A DNA stretch of 64,000 nt, taken from NCBI GenBank assembly GCA_022772735.1, contig JALEZD010000018.1, positions 1 to 64,000 of the forward strand, written 5' to 3'. Both the position numbers and the translations under genes were made by a program. Shown in pieces: positions 13,418-42,560 of this stretch; within the stretch, counting starts at the first letter, position 1, and each line of letters starts with the position of its first letter. The DNA is from Erysipelotrichaceae bacterium (GTDB taxonomy: Bacteria > Bacillota_I > Bacilli_A > Erysipelotrichales > Erysipelotrichaceae). The notes below the pieces were generated by a model, which was given only the letters and a program-made list of their open reading frames with translations, had not been told where the DNA came from and searched no databases.

Positions 13418-13430
13418 TTAAATTCCTTTC

Positions 13431-14384: not shown

Positions 14385-14386
14385 AT

Positions 14387-16396: not shown

Positions 16397-17834
16397 TTTC
16401 TAAACTACCTTTCTTAAATCTTTGTAAAACTTCCATTAATAAACTTGCCTTAAATAAATACAGAATAATCAAATATGTTAATCCACCAAAGCCAATTTGG
16501 ATTAAATTAACAATAAAACTACTTCCTAATAAAACACCTGTAAAATATGTCACTAATCCCATGACTAAAGAAGAAAAAACAACCAAAAATAGCTCTTTTA
16601 TTTCTATAGACACTTTCAACTTATCTTTTACATAAATCCATTGGATTAAAGTAACCGCAAACTCTGCCGCAACAGAACCTATTATCGCACCATAAGCACC
16701 ATAACTAGGGATTAATGTATAATTTATACAAAAATTTATTATTGCTCCACTTATAACAGAAATTGTATATTTTTTAAAATCGCCTACTGGAACCATATAT
16801 TGTGTACCAAAAACATTACTTAGAGATATAAATAATATTATTGGAGCAGCACATTTAATAAGAAGCCCTGCTTGAGCATATTCTGGTGGCAAAAACCAAT
16901 TAATAAAATTCTGAATTACTCCAAAAATACCAAAAATCATTGGAATTGAAAGATACAATGCAATTTTAAATGTTTTATTTAGATAATTATTTATTGAATC
17001 CATATCTCCTTTAACAAAAACATTCGCAACTCTAGGTAACATAACACTTCCTAAAGAAGTAATAAAGAATAAAAACATTTTTACAAATTGTTGAGATTGT
17101 CTGTATAAATTAACATGATCAATGCTGTTATACAAATAACCTAACATTGTTATATCTAATAGTGAATATACGCTAATTGCAATCTGTGGTATAAAAAGTG
17201 TTAAATTAGGTTTAATATGCTTTAAAACTCCTTTTAAACTTATCTTTTCAAATGAGATATACTGCTTTAACTGTAACCACATAATAAACTGACCACAAAC
17301 TCCAAGTATCGTATTTAAATATACAAATTTTTCTAAATCATTTGGACCTTTAATAAGTATTAAAATTAAACAAACATTTACAATTTTAACTATCATATTT
17401 CTAATACTTGCTTTTTTAAAATCTTCAACACCATAAAAAAACCAAGTAATATCTAATGAAACACTTAAAAGAGTTATTCCTTGTATTAATAATATATTTA
17501 TATAATCAGTTTTAAATGCTACTAAGAAAATAACAAATGCAAAACTGGATAATAACATACTTAAAAACTGCATTGAGAATATTTCAAAAAAAGTTTTTGA
17601 CAATAATTTTTTATCATCTCTAACTCTAGCTATTTCTCTATTGCCATAAATATTCACACCCATTATTCCAAATAATACAAACCATTGTATTAAATTTCCT
17701 GTAAAGTCATTTATACTTAAAACCGTTAAGCCCATAACTCTTGTAAGATATGGGGTTGTTATAAACGGGGTAACAACAATCAAAAGTTGATAAATTACAC
17801 TATATATATAATTGCTTGTAAGCTTCTTATCCAT
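16383..17834 (-). CDS. Wzx-type oligosaccharide flippase (RfbX-like)
   Basis: This 483-residue protein has about 12-14 membrane helices. N-terminal features typical of RfbX/Wzx are YQLLIVVTPFITTPYLTRVMG, GVNIYGNREIARVRDDK and later GPNDLEKFVYLNTI. It moves undecaprenyl-linked repeat units across the membrane. It is the first gene of its transcript, with an extended -10 promoter upstream and AGGTGAT before the ATG. Three GT2 genes follow, which probably build the unit it exports. Confidence 0.92.
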   Translation of the reverse strand: MDKKLTSNYIYSVIYQLLIVVTPFITTPYLTRVMGLTVLSINDFTGNLIQWFVLFGIMGVNIYGNREIARVRDDKKLLSKTFFEIFSMQFLSMLLSSFAFVIFLVAFKTDYINILLIQGITLLSVSLDITWFFYGVEDFKKASIRNMIVKIVNVCLILILIKGPNDLEKFVYLNTILGVCGQFIMWLQLKQYISFEKISLKGVLKHIKPNLTLFIPQIAISVYSLLDITMLGYLYNSIDHVNLYRQSQQFVKMFLFFITSLGSVMLPRVANVFVKGDMDSINNYLNKTFKIALYLSIPMIFGIFGVIQNFINWFLPPEYAQAGLLIKCAAPIILFISLSNVFGTQYMVPVGDFKKYTISVISGAIINFCINYTLIPSYGAYGAIIGSVAAEFAVTLIQWIYVKDKLKVSIEIKELFLVVFSSLVMGLVTYFTGVLLGSSFIVNLIQIGFGGLTYLIILYLFKASLLMEVLQRFKKGSLENGNA

Positions 17835-17852
17835 TTTTTAATCACCTATGTA

Positions 17853-17861
17853 ATTATATCA
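17853..17861 (-). promoter_or_regulatory. Extended -10 promoter of the wzx operon
   Basis: On the minus strand TGATATAAT gives a consensus -10 with a TG extension, about 20 nt before the Wzx start. It lies directly after the glf terminator, so the wzx unit is separately controlled. Confidence 0.6.
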
Positions 17862-17883
17862 TGTATAAATGTGTAGTGATACA

Positions 17884-17907
17884 TCAAAAAAAGACCTAAA
17901 GGCCTTT
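17884..17907 (-). terminator. Terminator of the dTDP-sugar/glf operon
   Basis: AAAGACC (17890-17896) and GGCCTTT (17901-17907) pair with one G-T. A T-run follows on the minus strand. The glf stop codon lies at the edge of the stem. Confidence 0.8.
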
Positions 17908-19065
17908 TAACTTTTCATAAAGATTTAATGCTGCATCAACAATTGCATCCATATTATAATATCTAAATTCTGCAAGTCTTCCCAATAAGTATAAATTTTT
18001 AAAATTATCTGATAATTTTACATATTCTTTATACTTTTCTTCAATTTCCTTTGTGAAAATAGGATAATATGGTATGTTACCTTTTTTTGAATTTCTATTA
18101 TATGGATAAGGATATTCAATCGCAATTGTTGTCATATTCAAATTATCATCTTCCATCAAATGTTTGTATTCTGTAATTCTTGTATACTCATTTTCATCAG
18201 AAGGAGTAGGATAATTTACAGTACCACATTTTTGATATGTACCCTTATGACTTTCTGAAACAAATTCTAAACTTCTATAAGGCAATTCACCTAATGTATA
18301 GTCAAATAACTCATCAATTGCACCAGTATATATTACTTTACCTGAAAATTCTTCATCATTTAAATATATTTTATTTTTTTCAGTATCAAATTTTAATACA
18401 TCTTTACATTCTGTTTCTAATAAAATTTCAATGTTTTTACTTGCTAAAAGATTTTCAAATAAACTAGTAAATCCATCTTTAGGCATTTGTTGATATTCAT
18501 CTTGAAAATATCTATCATCATATGAAATATGCACTGGAACTCTGCCTGTAACTGCTGGATCAATCTCTTCAGGAGATAAGCCCCATTGTTTCATAGTGTA
18601 ATATTTAAATACATTTTCATAAATAAACTCTGCCAATTCTTTTATTTCAGAATTTTCATTTTTTCTAAGCTCTAATATAGGAACTTTTGTTTCCATTCCA
18701 TATGTTTCAATAAGCAAACTCTTTAATTTGTTTGCTTTATCATTTTCAAATACTTCTTCAATAGAAGTTAAATTAAATGGGATTGGAACTAATTTATCAC
18801 AAACTTTACCAAGTACTCTGTGTTCATATTTATACCATTTGGTATAATTGCTTAAAAAATCAACAACTTTTTTATTAGAAGTGTGAAAAATATGTGGTCC
18901 ATATTTGTGGTATCTAACATTTGACTCATCAATAAAATCATACATATTACCACCAATTTGACTTCTTTTTTCAATTATTAGTACCCTTTTATTGTCACTA
19001 GCAAATCTATTTGCAATTACACTGCCAGCAAATCCTGCACCAACAACAACTACATCATATTTCAT
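17896..19065 (-). CDS. glf: UDP-galactopyranose mutase
   Basis: This 389-residue flavoenzyme interconverts UDP-galactopyranose and UDP-galactofuranose, the donor for galactofuranose residues in surface polymers. The FAD-binding start VVVVGAGFAGSVIANR, the IEKRSQIGGNMYD segment and YGPHIFHTS are diagnostic. GRLAEFRYYNMDAIVDAAL near the end is also conserved. It is last in the operon with rfbA, the SDR gene and rfbB; the gap to rfbB is 3 nt. No galE is in the window, so UDP-galactose must be supplied from elsewhere. Confidence 0.96.
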   Translation of the reverse strand: MKYDVVVVGAGFAGSVIANRFASDNKRVLIIEKRSQIGGNMYDFIDESNVRYHKYGPHIFHTSNKKVVDFLSNYTKWYKYEHRVLGKVCDKLVPIPFNLTSIEEVFENDKANKLKSLLIETYGMETKVPILELRKNENSEIKELAEFIYENVFKYYTMKQWGLSPEEIDPAVTGRVPVHISYDDRYFQDEYQQMPKDGFTSLFENLLASKNIEILLETECKDVLKFDTEKNKIYLNDEEFSGKVIYTGAIDELFDYTLGELPYRSLEFVSESHKGTYQKCGTVNYPTPSDENEYTRITEYKHLMEDDNLNMTTIAIEYPYPYNRNSKKGNIPYYPIFTKEIEEKYKEYVKLSDNFKNLYLLGRLAEFRYYNMDAIVDAALNLYEKLKGL

Positions 19066-19068
19066 TTT

Positions 19069-20082
19069 TTATCTCCCACTATACATTTTGTCATAGTAGT
19101 TTTTATACTCACCACTTACGATTTCTTCCCACCAAGATTTATTATCCAAATACCAATTTATTGTTTGCATTATTCCTGTTTCAAAATTATATTCAGGTTT
19201 CCATCCTAATGTTTTAGATATATAACTTGCATCAATCGCATATCTTTGGTCATGACCAGGTCTATCTTTAACATAATTAATTAAACTTTCAGATTTATCT
19301 AATGCTTTTAAAATAGTTTTTACCACTTCAATATTGGCTCTTTCATTATTACCACCAATATTATAAACTTCTCCAACTTTGCCATTTCTGATAATTAAAT
19401 CTATTGCACTGCAATGATCTTTAACATGTAACCAGTCTCTAACATTTAACCCTTCACCATACACTGGTAAAGTTTTATCATCTAGTGCCCTTGCGATCAT
19501 TAATGGAATAAGTTTTTCTGGAAATTGAAATGGTCCATAATTATTTGAACATCTAGAAATAGTAATAGGTAATTTAAATGTTCTATAATATGCCAAAACA
19601 AGTAAATCAGCACTTGCCTTTGATGCACTATATGGTGAAGAAGTATGTAATGGAGTTGTCTCTTTAAATAGTAAATCAGGTCTATCTAATGGTAAATCAC
19701 CATAAACTTCATCTGTAGAAACTTGATGGTATCTCTTAACTCCATATTTTCTAGATGCATCCATTAAAACTTGTGTTCCCAAAATATTAGTTTTTAAAAA
19801 TACTCCTGGATCTTCAATAGATCTATCTACATGCGATTCAGCCGCAAAATTTACAACAACATCAAAATTTTCTTCAGAAAAAAGTTTGAATATTGCTTCT
19901 CTATCACAAATATCTTCTTTTACAAATTTTATTTTATCTAATACAGGCTGTAAAGTTTTAAGATTTCCTGCATATGTTAATAAATCTAAAACAACTATCT
20001 CATCTTCTGGATGTTTTTCAAGTAAATAATAAACAAAGTTACTTCCTATAAATCCTGCTCCACCTGTAACTAAAATTTTCAT
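19069..20082 (-). CDS. rfbB: dTDP-glucose 4,6-dehydratase
   Basis: This 337-residue short-chain dehydrogenase converts dTDP-glucose to dTDP-4-keto-6-deoxyglucose. The NAD-binding GGAGFIGSNF, the catalytic region QVSTDEVYGDL, the YSASKASAD active site (Tyr-x-x-x-Lys) and RCSNNYGPFQFPEKLIP are all as in RfbB/RmlB. It overlaps the upstream SDR gene by ATGA and lies 3 nt before glf. It takes the product of RfbA as substrate. Confidence 0.96.
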   Translation of the reverse strand: MKILVTGGAGFIGSNFVYYLLEKHPEDEIVVLDLLTYAGNLKTLQPVLDKIKFVKEDICDREAIFKLFSEENFDVVVNFAAESHVDRSIEDPGVFLKTNILGTQVLMDASRKYGVKRYHQVSTDEVYGDLPLDRPDLLFKETTPLHTSSPYSASKASADLLVLAYYRTFKLPITISRCSNNYGPFQFPEKLIPLMIARALDDKTLPVYGEGLNVRDWLHVKDHCSAIDLIIRNGKVGEVYNIGGNNERANIEVVKTILKALDKSESLINYVKDRPGHDQRYAIDASYISKTLGWKPEYNFETGIMQTINWYLDNKSWWEEIVSGEYKNYYDKMYSGR

Positions 20083-20960
20083 TTTAAATCCTCCTTTAGT
20101 TTTAAAACTTCTAACTCTATTCCTTTTTTAATATCAAAGTTAATATTAAAGTCGGTTAATTTTTTTAGTTTATCATTAGATAATACTATTGATTTAATAA
20201 TCGGTACATTAATATTACTTTTTTCTATTTCTATTTTTTTACCAGAATAATGCTCAACATATTTAATTACTTCTTTAATACTTGTTCCAGACTTTGAAGA
20301 AATGTTTATTATTTCATTATTTATATCAAAATCAATTAGTTTTTTTACTGCATTTGTAAAATCATCTATGTAAATATAATCTCTGACACTAGATTCATCT
20401 GCCCATAAATAAAATTTTTTATTTTCAAGTGCACTTTTAACTAATATATCAATAACACCTTGTGTTTTATTTGGTTCAAAGATTCCACCATACGGATTTG
20501 TAGGCCTTAAAATCAAATAATCAATACCTGTAGATTTTAACATGTTTTCTAGCATATATTTACTTTTAGCATACACACTCTGTGGATTTAATGGATGACT
20601 CTCATTTATTGGCTCATAACAGTCTCCATAAATTGTTCCACCACTTGATAACATAATAAACCTTTTAATATTTTTATTTTTTAAAACATTGAACAATATT
20701 TCATATTTTTCTTTAACAAAATTAAGTTTATCTAAATTATCTTCAGTATTAGAAACAAGAGATATACAATCTATAATTATGCAATCATCAAAATCTTCAT
20801 TCAATAAATTTTCTTTATTAAACAAATCAAGTTCTCTAAAATTATTTGTTTTATCACTATAATAATTTTTTAAACCTAAAATCTCACAATCAAAACTAGT
20901 TTTTAATACTTCATTGATATTAAAACCTAAATAGCCACAACCTAAAATTTTAATTCTCAT
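20079..20960 (-). CDS. NAD-dependent epimerase/dehydratase (extended SDR), possible dTDP-hexulose reductase
   Basis: This 293-residue extended SDR sits between rfbA and rfbB. The nucleotide-binding loop is GCGYLGFNI, a variant of GxxGxxG. LSSGGTIYGD holds the catalytic Ser/Thr. YAKSK is the active-site Tyr/Lys. RPTNPYGG follows. It is not a typical RmlD. Its place in a dTDP-sugar operon lacking rmlD suggests it reduces the 4-keto group after RfbB and RfbC, giving dTDP-L-rhamnose or another 6-deoxyhexose such as 6-deoxytalose. It could instead be an epimerase acting on another sugar. The function is inferred from context only. Confidence 0.7.
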   Translation of the reverse strand: MRIKILGCGYLGFNINEVLKTSFDCEILGLKNYYSDKTNNFRELDLFNKENLLNEDFDDCIIIDCISLVSNTEDNLDKLNFVKEKYEILFNVLKNKNIKRFIMLSSGGTIYGDCYEPINESHPLNPQSVYAKSKYMLENMLKSTGIDYLILRPTNPYGGIFEPNKTQGVIDILVKSALENKKFYLWADESSVRDYIYIDDFTNAVKKLIDFDINNEIINISSKSGTSIKEVIKYVEHYSGKKIEIEKSNINVPIIKSIVLSNDKLKKLTDFNINFDIKKGIELEVLKLKEDLK

Positions 20961-20962
20961 TT

Positions 20963-21856
20963 TTAATCCTTATTGTATGTAGTATGCAAGCTACCATTTG
21001 CAACATTAATTAAATGTTGCCCATAATTACTTTTACCATATAAACTAGCAGCATCTAAAAGTTGTTCTTTTGTTATCCACTTATTGTAATATGCAATTTC
21101 TTCCGGAACTGAAATTTTAATTCCTTGCACTTCTTCTATTGTTTTTATATAGTTAGTAGCTTTAGATAATGATTCAATTGTACCTGTATCTAACCAGGCA
21201 AATCCCCTGCCAAATAGTTCACATTCAAGTTCATTATTTTCTAAATAAATTTTATTTAAATCGGTTATTTCATATTCACCTCTGGCACTTGGTTTTAATC
21301 CTTTTGCATATTCTACGACTCTATTATCATAAAAATAAAGTCCAACAACTGCATAGTTACTTTTAGGATTTTTTGGTTTTTCTTCAAGTGAAATAACTTT
21401 TCCACTCTTATCAAACTCTACTACCCCAAATCTTTCAGGATCATTTACATACTGTCCAAAAACTGTTGCACCAGATGTTTTGTTTTTTGCTTTTTTCAAT
21501 ATTTCAGCAAATTTATTACCATAAAAAATGTTGTCTCCAAGTATCATACATACATTGTCATCTTTAATAAACTCTTCACCCAAAACAAACGCTTGTGCTA
21601 ATCCATTAGGAACCTCTTGAATTTTATATTCCAATTTAATTCCAAATTGACTACCATCACCCAATAATCTTTTAAAATTGTCTATATCTTGTGGTGTTGA
21701 TATTATCAATATCTCTTTAATTTGAGCTAGCATTAATGTTGATAATGGATAATAAATCATTGGTTTATCATATATTGGTAACAATTGTTTTGATGTTACC
21801 TTTGTAAGTGGATAAAGTCTAGTTCCACTTCCTCCTGCAAGTATTATTCCTTTCAT
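20963..21856 (-). CDS. rfbA: Glucose-1-phosphate thymidylyltransferase
   Basis: This 297-residue enzyme joins glucose-1-phosphate and dTTP into dTDP-glucose, the first step to dTDP-deoxyhexoses. The start [14 protein letters not shown] (pyrophosphorylase motif), [26 protein letters not shown] and [11 protein letters not shown] are characteristic. The start at 21856 is chosen because GGAGG lies 6 nt upstream; a longer frame begins at 21889. It is the first gene of the nucleotide-sugar operon, behind an extended -10 promoter. Confidence 0.96.
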
Positions 21857-21874
21857 AGTTTCCTCCACCAATTT

Positions 21875-21883
21875 ATTATAACA
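21875..21883 (-). promoter_or_regulatory. Extended -10 promoter of the rfbA operon
   Basis: On the minus strand TGTTATAAT provides a consensus -10 with TG extension. It lies between the degV terminator and the rfbA ribosome site. The -35 region is T-rich and weak. Confidence 0.55.
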
Positions 21884-21894
21884 AACCAATACAA

Positions 21895-21923
21895 ATTAAA
21901 AAAGCATGAGTTAAATCATGCTT
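21895..21923 (-). terminator. Terminator of degV
   Basis: AAGCATGA (21902-21909) pairs with TCATGCTT (21916-21923), with a T-run on the minus strand (complement of 21896-21903). It overlaps the degV stop. Confidence 0.8.
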
Positions 21924-22743
21924 CTACAAATCCAATTGCACATGCACCTGGTCCTGCATGTACACCAACTACTGCACCAATTTCGACAATTTGTTCTACT
22001 TTATAACCTTTTTCTTCTAAAAGTGATTTTAAAATTAATGCACCTTCATTATTTTTTGTATATCCCAAATAAATTGGTTCACTAGTATCAATTTTGTGAC
22101 TCATTGCTTTTTCAAATATGGAATTAATCATTTGTTTGTATCCACGAGCTTTTGTAACAACTTCTAATTTCCCATCGTTTAAACCGATAATTGGTTTTAC
22201 TTTTAAAAGTGTACCTGCAAAACCAGCAACTTTAGAAAGTCTTCCACCTTTAACTAAAAATTCAAGTGTATCAAACCCTGCATATAATACAGTTTTATCA
22301 ATCATAGATTTAATTGTATTAACAATTTCTTCACAACTTTTATTTTCATCTCTAAGTTTAACAGCTTTATTTACTAGTAGTTTTAATGGCATTGCAGCAA
22401 CTCTACTATCGACAACTTCAACCCTATTTTTAACATCAAAGCTTGCAATTTTTGCACTTTGAATTGTTCCACTTAATTCACCAGATATTCCGATGAAAAT
22501 AATATCATCATTTGTTTCTTCATATTTTTTATATACATCATAGAACTGTGATGGTGAGGGTTGTGATGTAGTTGGATAATCTTTACTTACTAATAGTTCA
22601 TAAAATTCTCTACTTCCTAACTCTACCCTATCTAAATAACTTTTTTCTTTAAAAACTATATTTAAGGGTACAACGTCTATATTTAATTGTTTTGCTTCTT
22701 CTATTGTGAAATCTGAAGTTGAATCAGTTATAATTCTAATCAT
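21916..22743 (-). CDS. DegV family fatty-acid-binding protein
   Basis: This 275-residue DegV protein binds fatty acids in a two-domain fold and can present them to fatty acid kinase (FakB role). IRIITDSTSDFT, PTTSQPSPSQFYDVY, ISGELSGTIQSA and FLVKGGRLSK are family motifs, and AVVGVHAGPGACAIGFV closes the protein. It has its own strong promoter and terminator, so it is a single gene between two sugar operons. I see no direct link to polymer synthesis. Confidence 0.94.
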   Translation of the reverse strand: MIRIITDSTSDFTIEEAKQLNIDVVPLNIVFKEKSYLDRVELGSREFYELLVSKDYPTTSQPSPSQFYDVYKKYEETNDDIIFIGISGELSGTIQSAKIASFDVKNRVEVVDSRVAAMPLKLLVNKAVKLRDENKSCEEIVNTIKSMIDKTVLYAGFDTLEFLVKGGRLSKVAGFAGTLLKVKPIIGLNDGKLEVVTKARGYKQMINSIFEKAMSHKIDTSEPIYLGYTKNNEGALILKSLLEEKGYKVEQIVEIGAVVGVHAGPGACAIGFVEA

Positions 22744-22770
22744 CTATATTTCTCCTTTAAATACATAGCG

Positions 22771-22799
22771 ATTATATCAACTATTACTTTGATAGTCAA
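22771..22799 (-). promoter_or_regulatory. Promoter of degV
   Basis: On the minus strand TTGACT (22799-22794) and TATAAT (22776-22771) are separated by 17 bases, with TGA before the -10 box. This is one of the best promoters in the window. Confidence 0.85.
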
Positions 22800-22818
22800 A
22801 CCATTAAATCATACCAGA

Positions 22819-22852
22819 TAAAAAAACAGATACACTTGTATAAATGTATCTG
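22819..22852 (-). terminator. Terminator of the LCP operon
   Basis: CAGATACA (22827-22834) and TGTATCTG (22845-22852) form an 8-bp stem. Read leftwards it is followed by TTTTTTT. Confidence 0.8.
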
Positions 22853-22861
22853 CATATTTTA

Positions 22862-25426
22862 TTAAGGTGTTGGCTGAGAATTATTTTCTTCTCCTGATGT
22901 TCCTCCGTTTTCCCCACCGGAAGTTCCTCCGTTTTGATTTCCACTATTATCTGGAGTTGGTGGTAATTGACATGCACCATTCCATGTACCACCTTTAGAT
23001 TCACAATCAATTTGTTCTTGTGATTTTTGAGGTGAATCATTACATTGATTGTTATACCAATGTTTCCCTGACTCTTTACAAGCTTCTTCTGGTGTTTTTT
23101 GTGGTGAATCATTACATTGGTTGTTATACCAATGTTTGCCTGCAAGTGAACATCCTTTTTGTGTATTTAAATCATTTACACATTGGTTTCCTTCTAGTTT
23201 TTGACCTTCTGGACATGATTGCTTAACTAAACAATTCCCATTATCCCATGTTTTTCCATTTGCTTTACATCCAATTTCTGTACTTTCATCGTTTACACAT
23301 TGGTTTCCTTCTAATTTTTTTCCAGCAGGACATGTGGTTGCACTTGGAGTTGGTGATGAATTATTTTTCTTGTATATAACAGTAACATCAACATTTGCTG
23401 TTGCTGTTCCATTTACAATTGTTGGATTTGCAGTATAACCTGAAATTTCTGGACTGTTTATATGATATGAACCATTTTCATCTGTTTTTCCTTCATACTT
23501 AACATGTGCTTCACTACCGTCTTCATATTTATATCTTACAACAACATCAAATTTACCAGTTGTTGCTTTTGTAGCAGCAGTATTTCCTGTAACACTTACA
23601 GTTATTTCTGTAACATTAGAAACTTTAATTCCAGCTCTAACACTTTGCTCAAAAATTATATTATCTCCATAATTTCCACAGTTTCCATTTGTTGAACAAT
23701 CAACTCTATTAACATGTATTGTTATTCCTCTACTACTAGCCCATGACTGTATCGCATCTACTCCTTTACCAATAAAGTTAAGTACAGTATCAGGAACTTC
23801 AGAAGGTACTATTTTTTCAGAATATGTTTCATTAGATACAGTTGGTGCAACGAAAACCCAATTAGCATCCCATCTGTAGGTCTTAAAGGTACTTATTGTA
23901 TCATCAGTTTGCATATTTCTTAAAATAGCTGCTCTATTATCTTTAATTGAACCTTCATACAATCTAATTATTGAAAGAGTAAGTTGCAAAGACTCATTCC
24001 AAATTCCAGAGTTATAGCCAGATACTCTTGAACCCTCAATTTGTATTACATTTTCTAAATGTGAATCATCGTAATATCTGTTTGCTTTTTTCATAACATG
24101 ATTAAACAAATCAATAAGTTGATTAACACTTAAATTTGTAGATACATTATCTCCAGCTGCATCTAATACATTCAATAATTTATTTAAATCAGCAGTACGC
24201 ATTGCCTTTGTCAAAATTGCCTTAATAACTTGTTGTTGATTTGCCTGTCTTTGGAAATCACCTGAAGCATACAAATGCCTTTCTCTTGCGAAAGCTAAAG
24301 CTTGTTCACCATTTAATGGTGCATTTTCACCTTTTGGAACCCAAACAGTATAATGACCTCTTTGAGTTGATGAACTTTGTCCAACAAACTCATATGGATT
24401 GTTTACAACAATCCCACCAAGTGCGTCAACCATTTCAACTATTCCTTTAAAGTTACTTTCAAAGTAATAATCTATATCAACACCCATAAGTTTTGAAACC
24501 GTATCAATTGTACATTGTCTGCTTCTAACTCTGGCATGACCAAGTTTATCTGAAGATTGACCACTATAACAAGCAATTGGAACATAACTATCACGAGGTA
24601 TTGAAGTCATTGTAAGCTTCATACTTATTGGATTAAACGAAGCAAGAATAACTGCATCACTTCTTCCCTCATCTACTCCAAGTACAAGAACTGTAAATGG
24701 TTCTTTTGTAATATCCTTATCAGATGTTTTTGTTGCTTCAACTGCAACTGAGCTTGAGAATGTCGAAATTGCTTTAGTGTTTTTTAATAAATCACTATAT
24801 CCATCATTAACTTCAAATATTCCAATATAATTACTTGGAAGTGCAGCAGCATCTACATCACTATTAAATAAAGCTAACAACAATTCATTATTATCATTAA
24901 ATTCTCTATAAGAAACATTAATTTTTTTATTTGTAAGTTCTGTTTTTGCAAGTTCACCATTTGTACTGCCACTAACAATCCCTACAGTTTTTCCTTCTAA
25001 ACCTTCTTCTGTTTCTATTTTAAACTCAGCTTTTTCATCATATATTACAAAACTTGTTTCAACTTTTTCACTTGTGTCGCCTTTTTGAACAATTTTGTTT
25101 AAATTCTTATTAACTTTTAAAACTGCATATGTGCCATAACTTCCAATAGAAAATAAAAGTACTCCCATTGTAACAAGTGTATTAAAAAATACAGTTCTTT
25201 TAGTTCTTACAGTCAAAATATAAACAATATTTAATGTTAATAATATTAAAAGCATTACAATATTGATAATTGCAAATATTGTTTTACTTATGTTACTAAA
25301 TCTATTAAGATTCACAAAAATAAATGCCCAAAGTATATTGGTAAATAATACAATCACACCAAATATAATATTAAACAAGGACATATTTCTTTTGATTTTT
25401 TTATTTTTCATCTTTACATTTGTCAT
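22862..25426 (-). CDS. Large LytR-CpsA-Psr (LCP) protein with SBP-like insert, MucBP-like domain and Cys-rich tail
   Basis: LCP proteins transfer lipid-linked glycopolymers to peptidoglycan outside the cell. This 854-residue protein starts with three membrane helices (about 18-39, 48-72, 80-103). Residues 126-232 resemble part of a substrate-binding-protein lobe (GKTVGIVSGSTN). The LCP catalytic domain runs from about 244: LVLGVDEGRSDAVIL, SIPRDSYV with Arg278, FARERH with Arg381/Arg383, and DFQRQANQQQVI with Arg393. Residues about 566-615 look PASTA-like and 625-686 MucBP-like (VRYKYEDGSEA). Residues 699-820 contain 12 cysteines in six C-x10/11-C pairs with recurrent GKxW motifs. A Gly/Asn/Ser tail ends the protein. 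Usual LCP proteins are about 300-500 residues. GGAGG precedes the start, and the anchored protein gene lies 11 nt upstream. Confidence 0.92.
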   Translation of the reverse strand: MTNVKMKNKKIKRNMSLFNIIFGVIVLFTNILWAFIFVNLNRFSNISKTIFAIINIVMLLILLTLNIVYILTVRTKRTVFFNTLVTMGVLLFSIGSYGTYAVLKVNKNLNKIVQKGDTSEKVETSFVIYDEKAEFKIETEEGLEGKTVGIVSGSTNGELAKTELTNKKINVSYREFNDNNELLLALFNSDVDAAALPSNYIGIFEVNDGYSDLLKNTKAISTFSSSVAVEATKTSDKDITKEPFTVLVLGVDEGRSDAVILASFNPISMKLTMTSIPRDSYVPIACYSGQSSDKLGHARVRSRQCTIDTVSKLMGVDIDYYFESNFKGIVEMVDALGGIVVNNPYEFVGQSSSTQRGHYTVWVPKGENAPLNGEQALAFARERHLYASGDFQRQANQQQVIKAILTKAMRTADLNKLLNVLDAAGDNVSTNLSVNQLIDLFNHVMKKANRYYDDSHLENVIQIEGSRVSGYNSGIWNESLQLTLSIIRLYEGSIKDNRAAILRNMQTDDTISTFKTYRWDANWVFVAPTVSNETYSEKIVPSEVPDTVLNFIGKGVDAIQSWASSRGITIHVNRVDCSTNGNCGNYGDNIIFEQSVRAGIKVSNVTEITVSVTGNTAATKATTGKFDVVVRYKYEDGSEAHVKYEGKTDENGSYHINSPEISGYTANPTIVNGTATANVDVTVIYKKNNSSPTPSATTCPAGKKLEGNQCVNDESTEIGCKANGKTWDNGNCLVKQSCPEGQKLEGNQCVNDLNTQKGCSLAGKHWYNNQCNDSPQKTPEEACKESGKHWYNNQCNDSPQKSQEQIDCESKGGTWNGACQLPPTPDNSGNQNGGTSGGENGGTSGEENNSQPTP
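23031..23142. repeat. Tandem 72-bp coding repeat in the LCP tail
   Basis: Two ~40-bp blocks, 23031-23070 and 23103-23142, are nearly identical at a period of 72 bp. They encode GKHWYNNQCNDSPQK twice in a 24-residue repeat. A further longer-period repeat lies just upstream in the protein (CP.G.KLEGNQCVND appears twice, 39 residues apart). Recent duplication is the simplest explanation. Confidence 0.9.
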
Positions 25427-25437
25427 TGAAATACCTC

Positions 25438-26130
25438 CTATTCAGCTTTTTGAGCATCCCAATCATCATACATTGAAACTATTTCATATCTACCGTTGTT
25501 GTTAATGATTGTAAAATGTCCTACTTTCTGAAATTCATCAACATTAATTGCTGATGATTTTTTATAAGTCCATGTAACATCTAGATAATAAGCCTTATAA
25601 GTTTCACCATTTACATTATAGTCAACTGCATCAAGTGCTGGAGCACTTTCAATACTTTCAACTTCTATCAAATTTTCTCTTCCATACTTTTGAATATATA
25701 AATCTAAATCTTTGTAAAATCCATATCTATTTTCTTCAGAAAAACTAGTAAATTTTGGCCCGTATACATATTGAAGACCGCCAACTTCATAGTTTCCATC
25801 CTTATTTGTCCAAGTAAAATGGTCGATGACAAAACATCTAGCAACATATTCTGCAATAACATGAGGATCATCTTTTTTTATTGCAGCAGTAAGCTCTTTA
25901 AAATTATCCCTTAATAAAGGAGTTGGATTATTACCAATAGAATATAAAGAGTTAGAAATAGAACTGTTTTTATCTAATTCTAAAGTTGATGTTGAAGCAT
26001 TACTAGATTTACTTGCAACATTAAAAATATTAAAAATAAATACAGCTATTGTAATTACTGATATTCCTAAAACTGTAAGTATTAAAATACCATTTGTATT
26101 CTTTTTCTTTTTAACTGTTTTTGTATTCAT
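25438..26130 (-). CDS. Membrane-anchored protein of unknown function between GtrB-like and LCP genes
   Basis: I do not recognise this 230-residue protein. It has a basic start (NTKTVKKKKN), one membrane helix (about 15-37), a Ser/Asn-rich linker and an outer domain of about 160 residues. The outer domain has repeated Tyr/Trp-rich strands and ends GHFTIINNNGRYEIVSMYDDW. The layout (a helix, AIKKDDPHVIAEYVARCF, then strands) faintly resembles NTF2-like domains, like the protein at 8861. ACGGAGG precedes the ATG. It lies 11 nt from each neighbour, so it is made together with the transferase and the LCP enzyme and may assist polymer attachment. Confidence 0.7.
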   Translation of the reverse strand: MNTKTVKKKKNTNGILILTVLGISVITIAVFIFNIFNVASKSSNASTSTLELDKNSSISNSLYSIGNNPTPLLRDNFKELTAAIKKDDPHVIAEYVARCFVIDHFTWTNKDGNYEVGGLQYVYGPKFTSFSEENRYGFYKDLDLYIQKYGRENLIEVESIESAPALDAVDYNVNGETYKAYYLDVTWTYKKSSAINVDEFQKVGHFTIINNNGRYEIVSMYDDWDAQKAE

Positions 26131-26141
26131 TTAAACCTCCG

Positions 26142-27071
26142 TTATTCATAAGTTTTTCTAACTATGTAACTTGGACGATTTTTTACTTCCATATAGGTTT
26201 TAGACAAATACTCTCCAATAATACCCAAAGCTAATAATTGTATTCCACCTAAAAACATAATTATAATAACCATACTTGGCCATCCTGCAACTGGATCTTT
26301 AAAAATCAGTGTTCTAAAAAACACAAATAAAATCATAACAAATGAAACTCCAGAAATGAATAGACCTAATAATGTCGCAATTCTAAGAGGTGCAATTGTA
26401 AACGCAACAATACCATCAATTGCATAAGCAAACAATTTCCAAAAAGACCAACTTGTTTCACCAGCCACTCTTTCTACATTTTCATACTCTAAATAAACTG
26501 TTTTATAACCAACCCAAGCAAATATACCTTTTGAAAATCTATTGTATTCTTTTAATCTTAATATAGAATCTACAACAGACCTTTTCATCATTCTAAAATC
26601 TCTTGCACCATCTACAATTTCAACTTCACTAAACTTATTAATCAATTTATAAAATTCTCTTGCAAAAAATGACCTTATTTTTGGTTCACCTTTTCTAGTA
26701 ACTCTTCTTGTACCAACAATATCAATATCTTGTGTTTCCATTATTTCCAACATTTTTGGAATAAAACTTGGGGGATCTTGTAAATCAGCATCCATAACTG
26801 TAATAAAATCACCTCTTGCAGCTTCAAGGCCAGCAAGAAGACCACTTTCTTTTCCAAAATTTCTTGAAAAATCTATTACTCTTACATGATTTTTATGTAG
26901 TTCATATAATTTAATTAATTCTTGTAATGTATTATCTTTTGAGCCATCATTCACAAAAATTATTTCATAGCCCATTTTTAAATTCTCACAAACTTTTGAA
27001 GTTGCATCATAAAATAAAGCAACTGTTTCTTGTTCGTTATAACATGGAACCACTATAGATATAAGATGCAT
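26142..27071 (-). CDS. GtrB/CsbB-type polyprenyl-phosphate glycosyltransferase
   Basis: This 309-residue protein has a GT2 domain (ISIVVPCYNEQETV, FVNDGSKDNT, VMDADLQDPP with the metal-binding DAD) followed by two membrane helices (about 230-255 and 268-290). This is the form of enzymes that load a sugar onto undecaprenyl phosphate for side-chain glycosylation outside the membrane. The nearest flippase of the GtrA type is at 36899 and YfhO-type transferases are at 27153, 43834 and 51625. It leads a three-gene unit with the unknown anchored protein and LCP. Confidence 0.9.
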   Translation of the reverse strand: MHLISIVVPCYNEQETVALFYDATSKVCENLKMGYEIIFVNDGSKDNTLQELIKLYELHKNHVRVIDFSRNFGKESGLLAGLEAARGDFITVMDADLQDPPSFIPKMLEIMETQDIDIVGTRRVTRKGEPKIRSFFAREFYKLINKFSEVEIVDGARDFRMMKRSVVDSILRLKEYNRFSKGIFAWVGYKTVYLEYENVERVAGETSWSFWKLFAYAIDGIVAFTIAPLRIATLLGLFISGVSFVMILFVFFRTLIFKDPVAGWPSMVIIIMFLGGIQLLALGIIGEYLSKTYMEVKNRPSYIVRKTYE

Positions 27072-27093
27072 AACATACCTCCATAATACTAAT

Positions 27094-27099
27094 ATTATA
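27094..27099 (-). promoter_or_regulatory. -10 box of the GtrB-unknown-LCP unit
   Basis: TATAAT on the minus strand lies 22 bases upstream of the GtrB start, in the 81-bp gap after the YfhO gene. The -35 region is poor. The gap also has a small hairpin near the YfhO end whose T-run faces the plus strand, so it would not stop the leftward transcript well. Confidence 0.45.
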
Positions 27100-27152
27100 C
27101 GCTACCTAAAAATAATTGTATATCATATTTAAAATCTATGGTTTTTTTATCC

Positions 27153-29357
27153 TTAAGTTTTTTTAAGAATTTTATTAGAAAAAAACATCAAAATACCATA
27201 TAAAATCATACCGATAACACTTAATAAACTACCCAATTTAAACCCATAGGGTAAAAATTTAACTTCAACATCTTGATATCCTTCAATAGCCTCAAAACTT
27301 AAAAATCCACCGTTTGATTCAAAAGAATTAACCTTATTTCCATTTATGTAGATATTAAATCCTTTACTAAAAGGAATAGGAATATTTACTATTGTATTTT
27401 TTTCACTAGAAAATCCAAATAAGACTTCATTTTCTTTTAATACAACATAATCTTCTTTAATATTTGAATATCCATTAAATTTAATGTTTTCATCACTTAT
27501 TAAGCAAGTATTTATTTGACATCCATTACTATCATTATACTTTCTATAGATTTTATAACTTTTAACAAATTCAGATTCTGAAATATTTTTATAAATAGGT
27601 ATTCCCTTAAAACTGCCTATTACCTCATATTTATCAAATGGAATATTATTTATATCTGTACTTATTGCATATTTAACATTTAAAAACTCTAAGATTTTTT
27701 TATCTTTTATTTCTAAAACCCAAGGTAAATATTTACTTACTTCAGAAAAGTTGTTCAATTTTATATTTTGATAATTAAGTGTACTATCATAAGTATTTAC
27801 AGACATCAATCCATAATCCAGATTTAAATTATTTGAATAATCCCAATATATAGTAGGAATATCAACATAAACCCTATAAAATCCATTGTCTATTTCCTTT
27901 AAATAAGTTTCTAATTCATCATTTTCACCTAGAACACTATGTACCCCATTAATAAACGATTTGTCAAAATTACTATAGAAACTATTTTTATAAACAGATA
28001 TATATGAATATATACAGAGTTCAAAAACTATAAAATATAAAACATATTTTTTATTTTTAATAAAATGATATGCAATAATCGTTAATAAACAAATTAATAA
28101 ATGATATTTATATTCATTAAATATATTAATGTTATATATATAACCTAAAATAGGAGTACTTATTATAAGAACTATTACAACTATAAAAGTTATTTTTTTT
28201 AATAATTTAAAATCTAATTTTTCATCTAAAACTTCCAACATTAAAACAATATTTATTAAACAAAAATAATTTAACCATCTAAATGTTGCCTCACTAAATC
28301 CCTGATAGATTGAAGAAAAAAATGGAATTAATAACATTAAATATAATATTATGTATATTATTTTATTAATATTTTTTTTAATAATTGAATAAGGGATTAA
28401 AATTGATGATATTGATGAAGTAAAGATAAAAACACTTAAAACACTGTTATATTTACTCACATATCTATATACTGAATTAAACTCATTTAATCTATTACTT
28501 GTAAAATTAAATGGAAAAAAAAGTCCAACTAAAATACTAAAATATATTTTTATTTCAGAATAAAATAAAAAGTCGGAACTTTTTGACAATCGTGGATTAT
28601 CCGACAAAAATAGTATAGACGGTAAAAGGACAATACTTGAAATCAAAACTGCAATAAAATAATATCTAATCAAAATTAGAGTTTTAATAAAAAACTGATT
28701 TATATCTAATCTGTTTTTAAAATAAACGTAAATATAATAAAAAATAGTAAAAAAAGATAAACCAAAAAAGAAATAATAATTAGTAATTATCAAAAATATT
28801 GTAATAAGTATAAAACCATTAAATTTATTTTCAAGTAAATATTTATCAATTGTATAAAAATAAAGTGGTACAAAAATACAGAAAGAATGAAAAAATGGAT
28901 CTTTAATTATATCTAAACTATATGATGAAAATGTATAAAGCAAACTACCAATAATCACAAAAGTGCTTTTAAATCCTTTATATTTTAAAAGTTTATACAT
29001 ACAACAAGATGATATAATAAATTTAATAAATGTCTGTATCATTACAACATAATGATATTTGAGTCTTGTAAATACAAACAACAAATCAAAAATATCTTGA
29101 TAATAAAACATCTTAGACGAATAATAATCATTTCCTAAAAAATAATCCCATGAATAAAAAGGAAATTTAAAATTTTTAATTGAATTTATTATAATATTTT
29201 TAAATGAAACATAAAAAGAACTATACTGTGTCCTCATATCCCATCCAATTACATAAGCTTTTTCGCTAATCAAATAAGGAATAAAAATGAATGAAGATAT
29301 AAATATAGTTAAAAATATTAATATAGATATTTCTTTTAAGTTCTTTTTATTTATCAT
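27153..29357 (-). CDS. YfhO-family membrane protein (GT-C type)
   Basis: This 734-residue protein has about 12-13 membrane helices and a C-terminal beta domain. YfhO proteins are GT-C-like transferases that use polyprenyl-phosphate sugars to decorate wall polymers outside the membrane. The marks are DMRTQYSSFYVSFKN, FPFYSWDYFLGNDYYSSK, EATFRWLNY and the C-terminal IPFSKGFNIYINGNKV/GGFLSFEAIEGYQDV block. It resembles the 51625 protein more than the 43834 one. It is last in the long leftward operon, and the GtrB-type gene 81 nt downstream could feed it. Confidence 0.88.
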   Translation of the reverse strand: MINKKNLKEISILIFLTIFISSFIFIPYLISEKAYVIGWDMRTQYSSFYVSFKNIIINSIKNFKFPFYSWDYFLGNDYYSSKMFYYQDIFDLLFVFTRLKYHYVVMIQTFIKFIISSCCMYKLLKYKGFKSTFVIIGSLLYTFSSYSLDIIKDPFFHSFCIFVPLYFYTIDKYLLENKFNGFILITIFLIITNYYFFFGLSFFTIFYYIYVYFKNRLDINQFFIKTLILIRYYFIAVLISSIVLLPSILFLSDNPRLSKSSDFLFYSEIKIYFSILVGLFFPFNFTSNRLNEFNSVYRYVSKYNSVLSVFIFTSSISSILIPYSIIKKNINKIIYIILYLMLLIPFFSSIYQGFSEATFRWLNYFCLINIVLMLEVLDEKLDFKLLKKITFIVVIVLIISTPILGYIYNINIFNEYKYHLLICLLTIIAYHFIKNKKYVLYFIVFELCIYSYISVYKNSFYSNFDKSFINGVHSVLGENDELETYLKEIDNGFYRVYVDIPTIYWDYSNNLNLDYGLMSVNTYDSTLNYQNIKLNNFSEVSKYLPWVLEIKDKKILEFLNVKYAISTDINNIPFDKYEVIGSFKGIPIYKNISESEFVKSYKIYRKYNDSNGCQINTCLISDENIKFNGYSNIKEDYVVLKENEVLFGFSSEKNTIVNIPIPFSKGFNIYINGNKVNSFESNGGFLSFEAIEGYQDVEVKFLPYGFKLGSLLSVIGMILYGILMFFSNKILKKT

Positions 29358-29359
29358 AT

Positions 29360-30175
29360 TTAAAGATTATTACTTTTCTCACTTTTTTGATAAAAATAAT
29401 TTATAAATTTGGCAATTGGTTTTGGCCAAAATTTTTCAAACATAATCAAATCTTGTGGACTTCTTGTATTTGCGTTTATTTCTCTTGAAGTATGAGTATC
29501 TTGATGTACCCTATGTCCCATCAATGATTTAGGAATAAAAATGAATTTACCACCTTTAATTTTAGCTAATTGTAACCAACCATACCAATCAGAATTTCCA
29601 TTTAACTGATCATTAACAAAAACAGACTTTGATTTTATATTTTTTTTACAAAAAGTAACTGCTGGACAACAAATAGAATCCCCAAGACAAATAACAGATT
29701 TTTTAATTATCGGACTTCCTGCCCAAAACCTAAGTCTAAGTGGTGATAATAAAATTCTCTTTATATTTAAAAGTGTATTAGAATAAACTTTTTCACCATT
29801 TCTTATTTCAAAATAATCTGTAAAAATTATTTGTGCATTTTTTTCTTTATTATATGCCTTAACAATTTCTAATGAATAATTTTTATCATATGTATCATCT
29901 TGGTGAGCGATTGTTACAAGTTCGCTTCTTCCTGCATTCCATGCAAAGTCAAAATCTACTGCATTTCCTCCACCTTTTATTTCATTTACTACAACTTCTA
30001 AATTATATTTACTAGCTAGATTTCTAATATAATCATTATCTGTTGAAGTACCAATTAAAACATGACTAGGATAATCTTGATTTAATACAGATTTTATACA
30101 TTCTTCTAAATATTCAGATTCCTTATACGCCAAAACAACATATGTATGAATTACTTCCTGATTAAATTCCCTCAT
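29360..30175 (-). CDS. GT2-like glycosyltransferase
   Basis: This 271-residue protein begins HTYVVLAYKESEYLEEC, a GT-A-type start. Residues matching a DXD-like site are DDTYDKNYSLEI after TIAHQ. It is a divergent GT2 group with C-terminal MGHRVHQDTHTSREIN. The start at 30175 has AGGGG 9 nt upstream; a longer frame at 30199 lacks this and overlaps rfbC. It is probably a transferase of the repeat-unit pathway, located next to rfbC, so it may use the dTDP-deoxyhexose. That link is speculative. Confidence 0.8.
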   Translation of the reverse strand: MREFNQEVIHTYVVLAYKESEYLEECIKSVLNQDYPSHVLIGTSTDNDYIRNLASKYNLEVVVNEIKGGGNAVDFDFAWNAGRSELVTIAHQDDTYDKNYSLEIVKAYNKEKNAQIIFTDYFEIRNGEKVYSNTLLNIKRILLSPLRLRFWAGSPIIKKSVICLGDSICCPAVTFCKKNIKSKSVFVNDQLNGNSDWYGWLQLAKIKGGKFIFIPKSLMGHRVHQDTHTSREINANTRSPQDLIMFEKFWPKPIAKFINYFYQKSEKSNNL

Positions 30176-30188
30176 TAATAAACACCCC

Positions 30189-30743
30189 TTAGTATTCAAA
30201 ATTATTATCTATATCACAAAGTATTGGATTGTTTTTATCCCTTTGTGATACATATATATCACCATTAAAATATTTACTATAATCTATATTTAAACAATTA
30301 TAATCAAGACCTCTATCATAGTCTTTATTAAAAACATTATCTACTTTATAGTTATATTCTGAATCATCTTCCACAACAAGAACTCCATGTGCAAATCCTT
30401 TCGGAATTAATACAAGCCTATTTTGATTGCCACTAAGCTCTATTAAAACACTTTGACCATAAGTAGGACTATTTTTTCTTAAGTCAACACTAATATCCAC
30501 AATTTTACCTTTTGTACATCTAATAAGTTTAGATTGCGCAAATGGCTCTTTTTGATAATGAAGACCTCTTAAAACACCTTTTTTTAATGTGCTTGAGCAA
30601 TTATCTTGTACAAATTCATTAAAAATACCTATTTTATTAAATGATTCCTTATTGTATATTTCCATAAAAAAACCACGTTCATCTTCATGTTTTGTAAGTT
30701 CAATAACTTTTATAGCATCAAAATATGTTTCTACAACTCTCAT
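30189..30743 (-). CDS. rfbC: dTDP-4-dehydrorhamnose 3,5-epimerase (RmlC-type)
   Basis: This 184-residue cupin-fold enzyme epimerises dTDP-4-keto-6-deoxyglucose at C3 and C5. Typical segments are DERGFFMEIYN, FVQDNCSSTLKKGVLRGLHYQ with the catalytic His, DISVDLRKNSPTYG and VLIPKGFAHGVLV. TTGAGGTG precedes the chosen ATG at 30743; a longer frame begins at 30755. It is about 9 kb away from rfbA and rfbB and in another transcript, an unusual split of the pathway. It could be a 3-epimerase rather than 3,5-epimerase. Confidence 0.92.
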   Translation of the reverse strand: MRVVETYFDAIKVIELTKHEDERGFFMEIYNKESFNKIGIFNEFVQDNCSSTLKKGVLRGLHYQKEPFAQSKLIRCTKGKIVDISVDLRKNSPTYGQSVLIELSGNQNRLVLIPKGFAHGVLVVEDDSEYNYKVDNVFNKDYDRGLDYNCLNIDYSKYFNGDIYVSQRDKNNPILCDIDNNFEY

Positions 30744-30764
30744 AACACACCTCAATCAAAGAAA

Positions 30765-31736
30765 TTATAACATCATTTTATTTAATTGCCTATAAAGCCA
30801 TGAAAATACCATAATATTCCATTTCCTAACAATTTTAAAATATTTATGTTTTATTCCACCAAACTCATTTAAATATTTATTTTTGTACCAATTTGGAAAC
30901 TTATCATTTAAAAGATTAAAACCCATCATTATAGTATTGTATCTATCATCTTTATCTTTGATAAGCGAGCTTCTTAAAAAGCTATTTCCTAAGAAAAATT
31001 TAATATGAATATATTCTAATTCATCTTTATATTCATCAAATAAATTATTATTTTTGTAATAATCATATATTATATTAAAAACTGTAATCATGTTTTTAAC
31101 TTGTTGATTGTTTGTATGAGTTATGCTTGTTGAAACTTGTACATAGCTTACAAATGCTTCATCAATAAATTCAACTTTTTTTAAAATACTAGATAGGCAA
31201 TACAAAAAACATGCATCCTCATATCTATTTCCATCTGGAAATTTCAAATCAGATTCTTTTATTAGTGAAGTTTTATAAATTTTATTCCATAGTGTTGCAA
31301 AAAGCTTAACCATCATATCTTTACCAGCTATATATGGTCCTTCTTTTTCTAGTCTTTCTTTTTTATCACTAACCCACATAAAGTTAGAGACAACCATGTC
31401 TGCATCAGTTTCTTTTGCTTTTGCATACATTTTAAAATACATATCACTCTTAGTATAATCATCACTGTCCAAAAATCCAAAATATTCACCATTTACAAGT
31501 GATAAACCATAGTTTCTAACTGAAGCAATACCCTTATTTTCTTGATGATATACTCTTATTTTATTAGGATATTTTTTGTAGTATTCATCAATAATTTCTT
31601 TACTATTATCACTTGAGCCATCATTAATAACAATTATTTCCATATCATCAAGTGTTTGAGATAAAAGAGAATCAAGAGCTTTAGAAATATATTTTTCTGC
31701 ATTAAAACATGGAACAATAACACTAACTTTAACCAT
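30765..31736 (-). CDS. GT2 glycosyltransferase (EpsJ-like)
   Basis: This 323-residue GT2 enzyme starts VSVIVPCFNAEKYISKA, with VINDGSSDNS, NKGIASVRNYG and DSDDYTK. The start at 31736 has GAGGT 6 nt upstream and overlaps the polymerase stop by 8 nt; a longer start at 31748 is possible. It follows the Wzy-like gene and precedes rfbC by about 20 nt. Sugar and linkage are unknown. Confidence 0.88.
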   Translation of the reverse strand: MVKVSVIVPCFNAEKYISKALDSLLSQTLDDMEIIVINDGSSDNSKEIIDEYYKKYPNKIRVYHQENKGIASVRNYGLSLVNGEYFGFLDSDDYTKSDMYFKMYAKAKETDADMVVSNFMWVSDKKERLEKEGPYIAGKDMMVKLFATLWNKIYKTSLIKESDLKFPDGNRYEDACFLYCLSSILKKVEFIDEAFVSYVQVSTSITHTNNQQVKNMITVFNIIYDYYKNNNLFDEYKDELEYIHIKFFLGNSFLRSSLIKDKDDRYNTIMMGFNLLNDKFPNWYKNKYLNEFGGIKHKYFKIVRKWNIMVFSWLYRQLNKMML

Positions 31737-33288
31737 TTTGTACCTCATTAACTTTATTCAATAAAATCCCAACTAAAAATGCCATAAACATAGTTGTTAC
31801 AAACTGATCTAAAGTATGACCGCTTATATAAGCACATCCCATTCCAGCAACAAGTGAAAAACCATAAGTAATTATTTCTAAATTAACAAATTTTTTGAAA
31901 TTCCTTAAAACTTTATAAACTCCATATATAATTATTAAAACCCAAGGCATACATGTCAAAGCCATTCCAAAATACCCAAGAGTATAAATTTGTTGTTTAA
32001 AATCTTGTTCAAGTACTATAGAACCATTCATAAATGTTGAATATCCCATTCCAAGCAACTTTTCAACAGAAGACACATTTTGCCACTTATAATTCATAAA
32101 TATTGTTTGAATTTGTCTTCCACTCACTCTATCAAAAACAGGCAAAAATATTACATCAACCCAAAACTTTGGATCAAATTTGTAATTGTACCAATCAACA
32201 TAATACATTGTTGGAATTGATGAAGCATATTTACCTCTTATCCCATATTGTTCAAACATAAAGATATAAAAATCATTAAATTCTTTGCTGCCAGGTATTA
32301 ATGGTGCATCTTTAAGAGCTTCTCTTCCTTCATCCGCAACTCCATTTTCTAAAAGTGCTAAATCATTTACTGCATCAACCCTTTGATTTTCAACTGCAGG
32401 AGTATAATTTAATATTAGTCCAAATATTGCAGTTACAACCAATAAAAATGCAAGTATAGAAAAATTCAATTTGTTATTTTTCATAATTAAAGTATCAAAC
32501 AAATATATAACAATGAATGTTGCAGGTATTATAAGTGCACCATATGTACCTACTCGTGTACCAAGTATTTGCATTGATAAACAGTGAATAAGTATTAATA
32601 TTCCATTGAAAATTTTTTTGTTTTTATTTACCTCTTTAATAAAGAAATAAATAAGCATTGGAGCAAGCATAAACATTAAAATGCCAATAGTGTTACCTTC
32701 ATTAAAGAAAAACTTACTTGTCAATTCTCTTGGATGATGCAATTTATATATACCATTAAACCAACTAAAGAAATTAGCAACTGTATAGCCAAAGTATGTG
32801 CTTTTTCCAAATACAAATAAATCACCCAATAAGATTGGAATAGATATCACACTACTCATAAACAAAACAATATTTTTTATTATATTTTCTTCAAACTTAA
32901 ATTTATATACACAATAAATTATTCCATAAGGTAAAACTAAAGTTAAAATATATGTTAATTCTTGAAAATAATTAAATTTAAAATTTGTTGTAAAATCTAA
33001 AATCGGATACAATCTCACAGATTGCATTGAATGTAGAATAAAATATCCAGATAAAAAAGTTCCATATATAACCGCAAATATTGTTGTTTTCTTTTTATCT
33101 TTTTCTTTTATATAAAAAGTCATTAAAACTAACAAAGGAATTATGATAAACCTAATGATTGTAGAAAATCTTGGCAATCCAAAGCTATCTAAAAAATCAT
33201 ATAACAAATAATCCATATCTATTAATGGTTGTAAAGCTATCAACAATATTAAACAAACTTTTAATACTTTTTCATTTATAATTTTCAT
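31729..33288 (-). CDS. O-antigen ligase/Wzy-like polymerase
   Basis: This 519-residue protein has about 11-12 membrane helices with one large outer loop (about 300-400) rich in Tyr, Trp and charged residues, the usual form of Wzy/WaaL proteins. LHHPRELTSKFFFNEGNTIGILM and LGTRVGTYGALIIP resemble the O-antigen ligase family regions. It would polymerise flipped repeat units outside the membrane. It is the only clear polymerase candidate in the window, although four flippases are present. It overlaps the next GT2 gene. Confidence 0.82.
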   Translation of the reverse strand: MKIINEKVLKVCLILLIALQPLIDMDYLLYDFLDSFGLPRFSTIIRFIIIPLLVLMTFYIKEKDKKKTTIFAVIYGTFLSGYFILHSMQSVRLYPILDFTTNFKFNYFQELTYILTLVLPYGIIYCVYKFKFEENIIKNIVLFMSSVISIPILLGDLFVFGKSTYFGYTVANFFSWFNGIYKLHHPRELTSKFFFNEGNTIGILMFMLAPMLIYFFIKEVNKNKKIFNGILILIHCLSMQILGTRVGTYGALIIPATFIVIYLFDTLIMKNNKLNFSILAFLLVVTAIFGLILNYTPAVENQRVDAVNDLALLENGVADEGREALKDAPLIPGSKEFNDFYIFMFEQYGIRGKYASSIPTMYYVDWYNYKFDPKFWVDVIFLPVFDRVSGRQIQTIFMNYKWQNVSSVEKLLGMGYSTFMNGSIVLEQDFKQQIYTLGYFGMALTCMPWVLIIIYGVYKVLRNFKKFVNLEIITYGFSLVAGMGCAYISGHTLDQFVTTMFMAFLVGILLNKVNEVQNG

Positions 33289-33299
33289 AATATACCCCT

Positions 33300-42548: not shown

Positions 42549-42560
42549 AAATTTCACCTT

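Follow-up and report, generated by a model that had tools for sequence, protein, structure and literature searches.

An LCP ligase of the Cps2A type in an Erysipelotrichaceae bacterium with a tail of apparently undescribed cysteine-pair modules

The window, the whole stretch of 64,000 nucleotides of Erysipelotrichaceae bacterium DNA that was analysed, contains at 22862..25426 (minus strand) a gene that almost certainly encodes an LCP ligase of the Cps2A type with the anatomy described below. The reading preferred here, with a probability of about 0.6, is that this enzyme is the ligase for the polymer of the surrounding polysaccharide locus and carries an exchangeable outer docking tail. The enzyme and its accessory lobe are of known kinds, and the tail is the new part, including a tryptophan-bearing cysteine module (hereafter the W-module) that is apparently undescribed. 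The ordinary part of the protein, the accessory lobe, can now be told apart from the unusual part, a family-restricted cysteine module present on several wall enzymes. The interest lies mainly in this module and in how its disulfides would be made.

The gene starts with an ATG at 25426 and is intact, being read as a single open frame of 854 codons (854 amino acids) with no internal stops. Three N-terminal transmembrane helices occupy residues 14–112 (25091..25387; this and all further features of the gene lie on the minus strand), as indicated by hydrophobic segments in the sequence (14–42, 43–76 and 78–96) and by the helices of an AlphaFold2 model (16–41, 48–75 and 78–112). The model, obtained with a 54-row alignment, has a mean pLDDT of 80.7 and beta-rich parts after the LCP domain. 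The catalytic core had been described as a normal one, which was borne out: the Pfam LCP family matches residues 255–408 with an E-value of 1.5e-37 (129.5 bits against a cut-off of 24.6), and all the catalytic residues are present. The solved chains nearest to the core are those of Cps2A (2xxp and others), and Pfam together with the alignment to 2xxp places the catalytic domain at residues 244–452 (24071..24697). In this alignment D252, D257, R278, R381 and R383 correspond to Cps2A D234, D246, R267, R362 and R364, with the three arginines numbered as is usual for Cps2A. D234 and D246 are catalytic in Cps2A (PMC7831098), and D257, R278, R381 and R383 are invariant columns among the rows of the LCP alignment. 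A Foldseek comparison of the whole model with Cps2A extended over 402 columns (E 2.9e-29). The NCBIfam Cps2A/CpsA model NF051849 covers residues 9–452 with 160 bits, far from its equivalog cut-off of 650; as judged by this score, the window ligase shares the CpsA architecture but is not the streptococcal equivalog.

The first-pass annotation had regarded residues 126–232 as an insert resembling a substrate-binding protein (SBP) and had supposed that the insert could bind the lipid-linked substrate. The structure prediction proposed for residues 120–235 was run on residues 112–240 (pLDDT 81) and gave an SBP-type lobe that is also present in Cps2A, since Foldseek related this model both to single lobes of amino-acid SBPs and to the Cps2A structures 2xxq, 3tel, 3tep and 3tfl. 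Thus the SBP-like fold is real, but it comprises about 110 residues against about 220 in the SBP targets, with a TM-score of only about 0.36, and Foldseek found a single lobe and no two-lobed SBP with a ligand cleft in the 112–240 model. Hubscher et al. reported in 2008 (PMC2632651) that CpsA, as well as Clostridiales proteins of their cluster F3, has a periplasmic-binding-protein-like II fold. The lobe (residues 113–240, 24707..25090) is the usual accessory domain of Cps2A/CpsA-type proteins, which follows the membrane helices, precedes the LCP domain and has been known since 2008, and its interpretation as a novel insert was rejected on the strength of both the Foldseek matches and this report. 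Because the accessory domain is one lobe only, substrate binding between two lobes is unlikely; besides, the lipid of Cps2A is bound in the LCP domain (PMC7831098), and binding of the lipid-linked substrate by the lobe in the manner of an SBP is improbable.

The gene is situated in a polysaccharide locus (16383..36869, minus strand). The locus encodes a flippase, a UDP-galactopyranose (Galf) mutase, RmlB/A/C-like proteins for a rhamnose-type sugar nucleotide, an O-antigen-ligase-like membrane protein and many glycosyltransferases. The adjoining upstream gene (25438..26130, minus strand), encoding 230 amino acids with apparently one membrane helix, keeps this position in G002, the nearest relative, where the order of the genes surrounding the LCP gene is conserved. 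The genome to which the window belongs (1.79 Mb, 97.5% complete) has no other LCP gene. As the gene is the sole one of its kind and is sited in a polysaccharide cluster, it is most probably, by its sequence context, the ligase joining the polymer of the locus to peptidoglycan. The locus further holds, as judged by eye, an MBOAT-like membrane protein with an SGNH-like partner in duplicate (41136–43853 and 47385–49988 of the window), a combination as in polymer O-acetylation systems.

The protein contains 16 cysteines: C286, C305, C577, C583 and twelve within residues 699–819. C286 (24569..24571) is located eight residues beyond the catalytic R278, and C305 (24512..24514), at the start of the next helix, was assigned as its partner by co-variation. 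In 116 LCP rows from the own and related families, among which kinship inflates any co-variation test, both cysteines are present in 91 and neither in 17, while the second occurs alone in two rows and the first alone in none. In the remaining six rows the C286/C305 pattern is replaced by two cysteines within the loop. It is likely that C286–C305 is a structural disulfide near the catalytic arginine, and such a bond would staple the loop beside R278. In one pair of LCPs (L076 and L080) both core cysteines have been lost jointly and the catalytic domain has been retained.

The PASTA-like and MucBP-like parts suggested for the region after the catalytic domain were both located, but both remain under the curated Pfam cut-offs in the window protein. 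The PASTA-like part (residues 547–612, 23591..23788), which contains C577 and C583, scores 14.7 bits against a cut-off of 23.2, and in the orthologue from Holdemania filiformis (L063) the PASTA region passes the same cut-off with 24.4 bits. The MucBP-like part (residues 628–686, 23369..23545) consists of beta strands in the model and scores 19.5 bits against a cut-off of 23.

The tail beyond these parts had been said to hold 12 cysteines in regular C-x10/11-C pairs, and the reading is exact: six pairs are found between residues 699 and 819, with 10, 11, 10, 11, 11 and 10 residues between the partners. The pairs are of two types. Pairs 1 (699–710, 23297..23332, CPAGKKLEGNQC) and 3 (738–749, 23180..23215, CPEGQKLEGNQC) are of a hairpin type with the form CPxGxKLEGNQC, recognised by their cysteine spacing and by their duplication of one another. 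Pairs 2 (720–732, 23231..23269, CKANGKTWDNGNC; profile E 1.7e-8), 4 (759–771, 23114..23152, CSLAGKHWYNNQC; E 1.9e-8), 5 (783–795, 23042..23080, CKESGKHWYNNQC; E 8.6e-10) and 6 (808–819, 22970..23005, CESKGGTWNGAC) belong to the W-module, which has about 20 residues and the pattern C-x3-G-[GK]-x-W-x4-C. Pair 6 is shorter by one residue and gives a weak profile match (E 0.23) in the same frame, with C, G, W and C intact. The cysteine, glycine, tryptophan and second cysteine are invariant in 24 W-modules of carrier proteins, a purely descriptive figure because the selecting motif fixes most of these positions; a less biased count of the contexts around the G..W core gave 63 with both cysteines, two with one and two with none. 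At the DNA level pairs 1 and 3, as well as pairs 4 and 5, are duplications with 81% identity. A tandem in-frame duplication of 72 nt (81%) lies at 23012–23155 of the window, within the tail, and recombination at this repeat could add or remove modules without a frame shift.

The structure prediction suggested for the tail (residues 690–825) was successful in part: the last two modules form a helix and a hairpin with a pLDDT of about 76–90, but the first four are poorly modelled, with residues 714–776 below 50. The scan of the window protein and the carriers revealed no Pfam family over its cut-off for the tail module, and no PDB chain matched it even at an E-value of 10. EGF-like, antistasin and Notch LNR families gave weak Pfam matches in some carriers, all sub-threshold, and an assignment of the tail to these modules was rejected for lack of any score over a cut-off. 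The literature search yielded no description of such modules from Erysipelotrichaceae.

As was found by the search with the cysteine module alone, which had been proposed for finding its other carriers, the module occurs in LCP ligases, at the C-terminal ends of class A PBPs, in a GDSL/SGNH hydrolase with an N-terminal membrane helix, in RCC1/fn3 surface proteins and in others. The array mostly follows a Pro/Thr-rich linker, and one genome (G087) has the W-module on three different proteins. With the profile at E 1e-4, the W-module was detected in only three of 392 Bacillota genomes (155 genera), all three of them Erysipelotrichaceae, and at E 1e-5 in 14 of 268 Erysipelotrichaceae genomes (5 of 60 genera); a looser BLAST search found it in 19 of 273 genomes of the family. 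Since the profile was built from Erysipelotrichaceae sequences, divergent modules elsewhere may be missed. The claim that the ligase has modules of a disulfide type and that they are unusual is upheld on both counts. In the own genome, BLAST and profile searches revealed no second carrier besides the LCP ligase, and a 12-bit profile match on contig C21 was taken as chance. No W-module was found on viral contigs, and plasmids carried no LCP with a W-module tail, only ordinary LCPs with less than 60% identity. In one MAG, two LCP genes at a short distance from each other (L085:6771-9827 and 12605-14476) have cysteine tails of 38 and 8 cysteines.

The named relatives in the genome collection are Holdemania, Anaerorhabdus and Solobacterium-like MAGs, and by them the organism is assigned to Erysipelotrichaceae. 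The LCP of G002, with 67% identity in the region common to both, carries (TTSPDP)n at the position of the modules and lacks the W-module, of which one copy occurs in another membrane protein of that genome. This copy, CVADGKYWYDDTC, belongs to a protein truncated by the contig start (L166:3-479), in which it is preceded by a Pro/Glu/Thr linker and followed by membrane helices, so that the same genus has the W-module outside an LCP as well. The orthologues of Holdemania and Anaerorhabdus possess shorter cysteine tails and no W-module, and the LCP tails of other relatives are PASTA or Pro-rich. In the tree of LCP cores, in which a few tails are truncated at contig ends, all module-bearing LCPs fall within one group of 27 rows (SH-aLRT 99), and inside this group the presence of the W-module changes, by gain or loss, at least seven times. 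This indicates that the enzyme is conserved and its tail an accessory that changes fast. Near the difference in the tails, an IS30-like transposase gene, identified by eye, lies in G002 (L157:6957-8222) beside the LCP gene at its 3′ end.

The absence of the array in the nearest relative might also be explained by a fusion of the LCP gene with an unrelated cysteine-rich gene through chimera or misassembly, a possibility that the first-pass annotation had named together with an absence of the modules at the same locus in close relatives. The absence applies to G002, with the same gene order, but other relatives carry the modules, so the tail is a variable accessory and not an artefact. Third-position GC (GC3) of the tail equals that of the rest of the gene, the frame is single and open, and the modules recur in independently assembled genomes, with the module-bearing LCPs of other assemblies in one well-supported clade. 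Isolate Holdemania genomes have the same LCP gene with a cysteine-bearing tail of the hairpin type. With uniform GC3 and recurrence in separate assemblies, the chimera is excluded and this explanation is essentially refuted.

According to the preferred reading, a Cps2A-type ligase of cluster F3 would move the polysaccharide of the locus from its lipid carrier onto peptidoglycan. The chain beyond the membrane would traverse the wall, and the PASTA-like and MucBP-like parts with the cysteine array would serve as an exchangeable outer docking tag. Its tandem W-bearing modules, helix/hairpin units stapled by disulfides, would keep the enzyme by the nascent wall or polymer, and further membrane-anchored enzymes of the wall in Erysipelotrichaceae, such as the class A PBP and the SGNH hydrolase, would bear the same tag. 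The modules are not needed for the transfer reaction, because G002 does without them. The docking of the enzyme to the wall or polymer by the tail can be put forward only tentatively. It is possible, if doubtful, that the tail is a stiff protease-resistant spacer without a ligand, interchangeable with Pro/Thr repeats, as the (TTSPDP)n at the same place in G002, the PASTA or Pro-rich tails of other relatives and the frequent position of the array after Pro/Thr linkers might suggest; the strict tryptophan and glycine in each module and its reuse on unrelated enzymes exceed the needs of a spacer. A role of the tail in adhesion to mucus or host glycans, with an abundant envelope protein as its carrier, seems unlikely: the MucBP-like part ahead of the array, the origin of relatives from gut samples and a tail turnover that suits contact with a variable host surface are consistent with it, but the MucBP match is under its cut-off and an adhesin would be poorly placed on enzymes of wall synthesis like the class A PBPs.

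The cysteines of the modules and of the core quite probably form disulfides. An even number of cysteines was considered as proof of full pairing and is unsupported, as the extracytoplasmic totals in long LCPs are even in 13 cases and odd in 12; even totals not being preferred, some cysteines may be unpaired. A search for extracellular disulfide-forming enzymes, also proposed in advance, found no VKOR over the cut-off in 268 Erysipelotrichaceae genomes, and domain searches of the own genome found neither DsbA nor Thioredoxin_4. DsbA is present in some relatives, G002 included; a DsbD_TM match in G002 falls in a gene of a different kind and was set aside as spurious. The only candidate for extracytoplasmic thiol-disulfide exchange in the own genome, as predicted from its domains, is a membrane CcdA-type domain fused to a redoxin with the CxxC motif CHYC (L154:2992-4170, contig C12 near 187 kb), the remaining redoxin matches resembling cytosolic peroxidases and thioredoxin. 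Proteins of the CcdA-redoxin type are more often reductive. This fusion would suit the notion of a redox switch or metal site, formed by the cysteines, with which an anaerobe would sense oxidants, but one pair per 20-residue module looks like a structural staple and the number and spacing of the modules vary freely, which makes such a role very improbable.

A broader proposal, more speculative than the reading of the single enzyme, is that the Erysipelotrichaceae-specific W-module is a common swappable tag docking anchored wall-building enzymes to wall or polymer, and that it implies an unrecognised oxidative folding route outside the cell. If the modules dock in this way, they would show how a little-studied gut family positions its wall synthesis, and the folding route would be one operating in anaerobes, with neither DsbA nor VKOR found in the own genome. 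With the core pair and the module pairs, the oxidative folding of proteins in low-GC anaerobes that have no DsbA or VKOR becomes a testable question.

Among known systems, LcpA of Actinomyces oris is also an LCP enzyme with a stabilising disulfide, dependent on MdbA and VKOR (PMC6381275); in the window ligase the disulfide is only predicted. In LcpA the bond C179–C365 fastens the C terminus to an alpha-helix, and the window pair would join the loop after R278 to the next helix; with these other positions and no VKOR over the cut-off in 268 genomes of the family, C286/C305 was rejected as a disulfide of the LcpA type. The wall-associated PASTA and MucBP domains are weakly resembled at residues 547–612 and 628–686, in both cases below the cut-off. 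EGF-like, antistasin and Notch LNR modules are likewise short, tandem, extracellular and of a disulfide type, but the W-module has one cysteine pair each with an invariant glycine and tryptophan. The closest likeness is to Cps2A/CpsA, the LCP ligase of the streptococcal capsule from cluster F3 (PMC2632651), with which the window ligase shares the three transmembrane helices, the accessory lobe of the periplasmic-binding-protein II fold, the LCP domain, the catalytic Asp and Arg residues and the position in a polysaccharide locus. It differs from Cps2A in the cysteine pair of the loop that follows the catalytic arginine, where Cps2A has none at those positions, and from Cps2A/CpsA in about 300 extra C-terminal residues that comprise the PASTA-like part, the MucBP-like part and the cysteine array.
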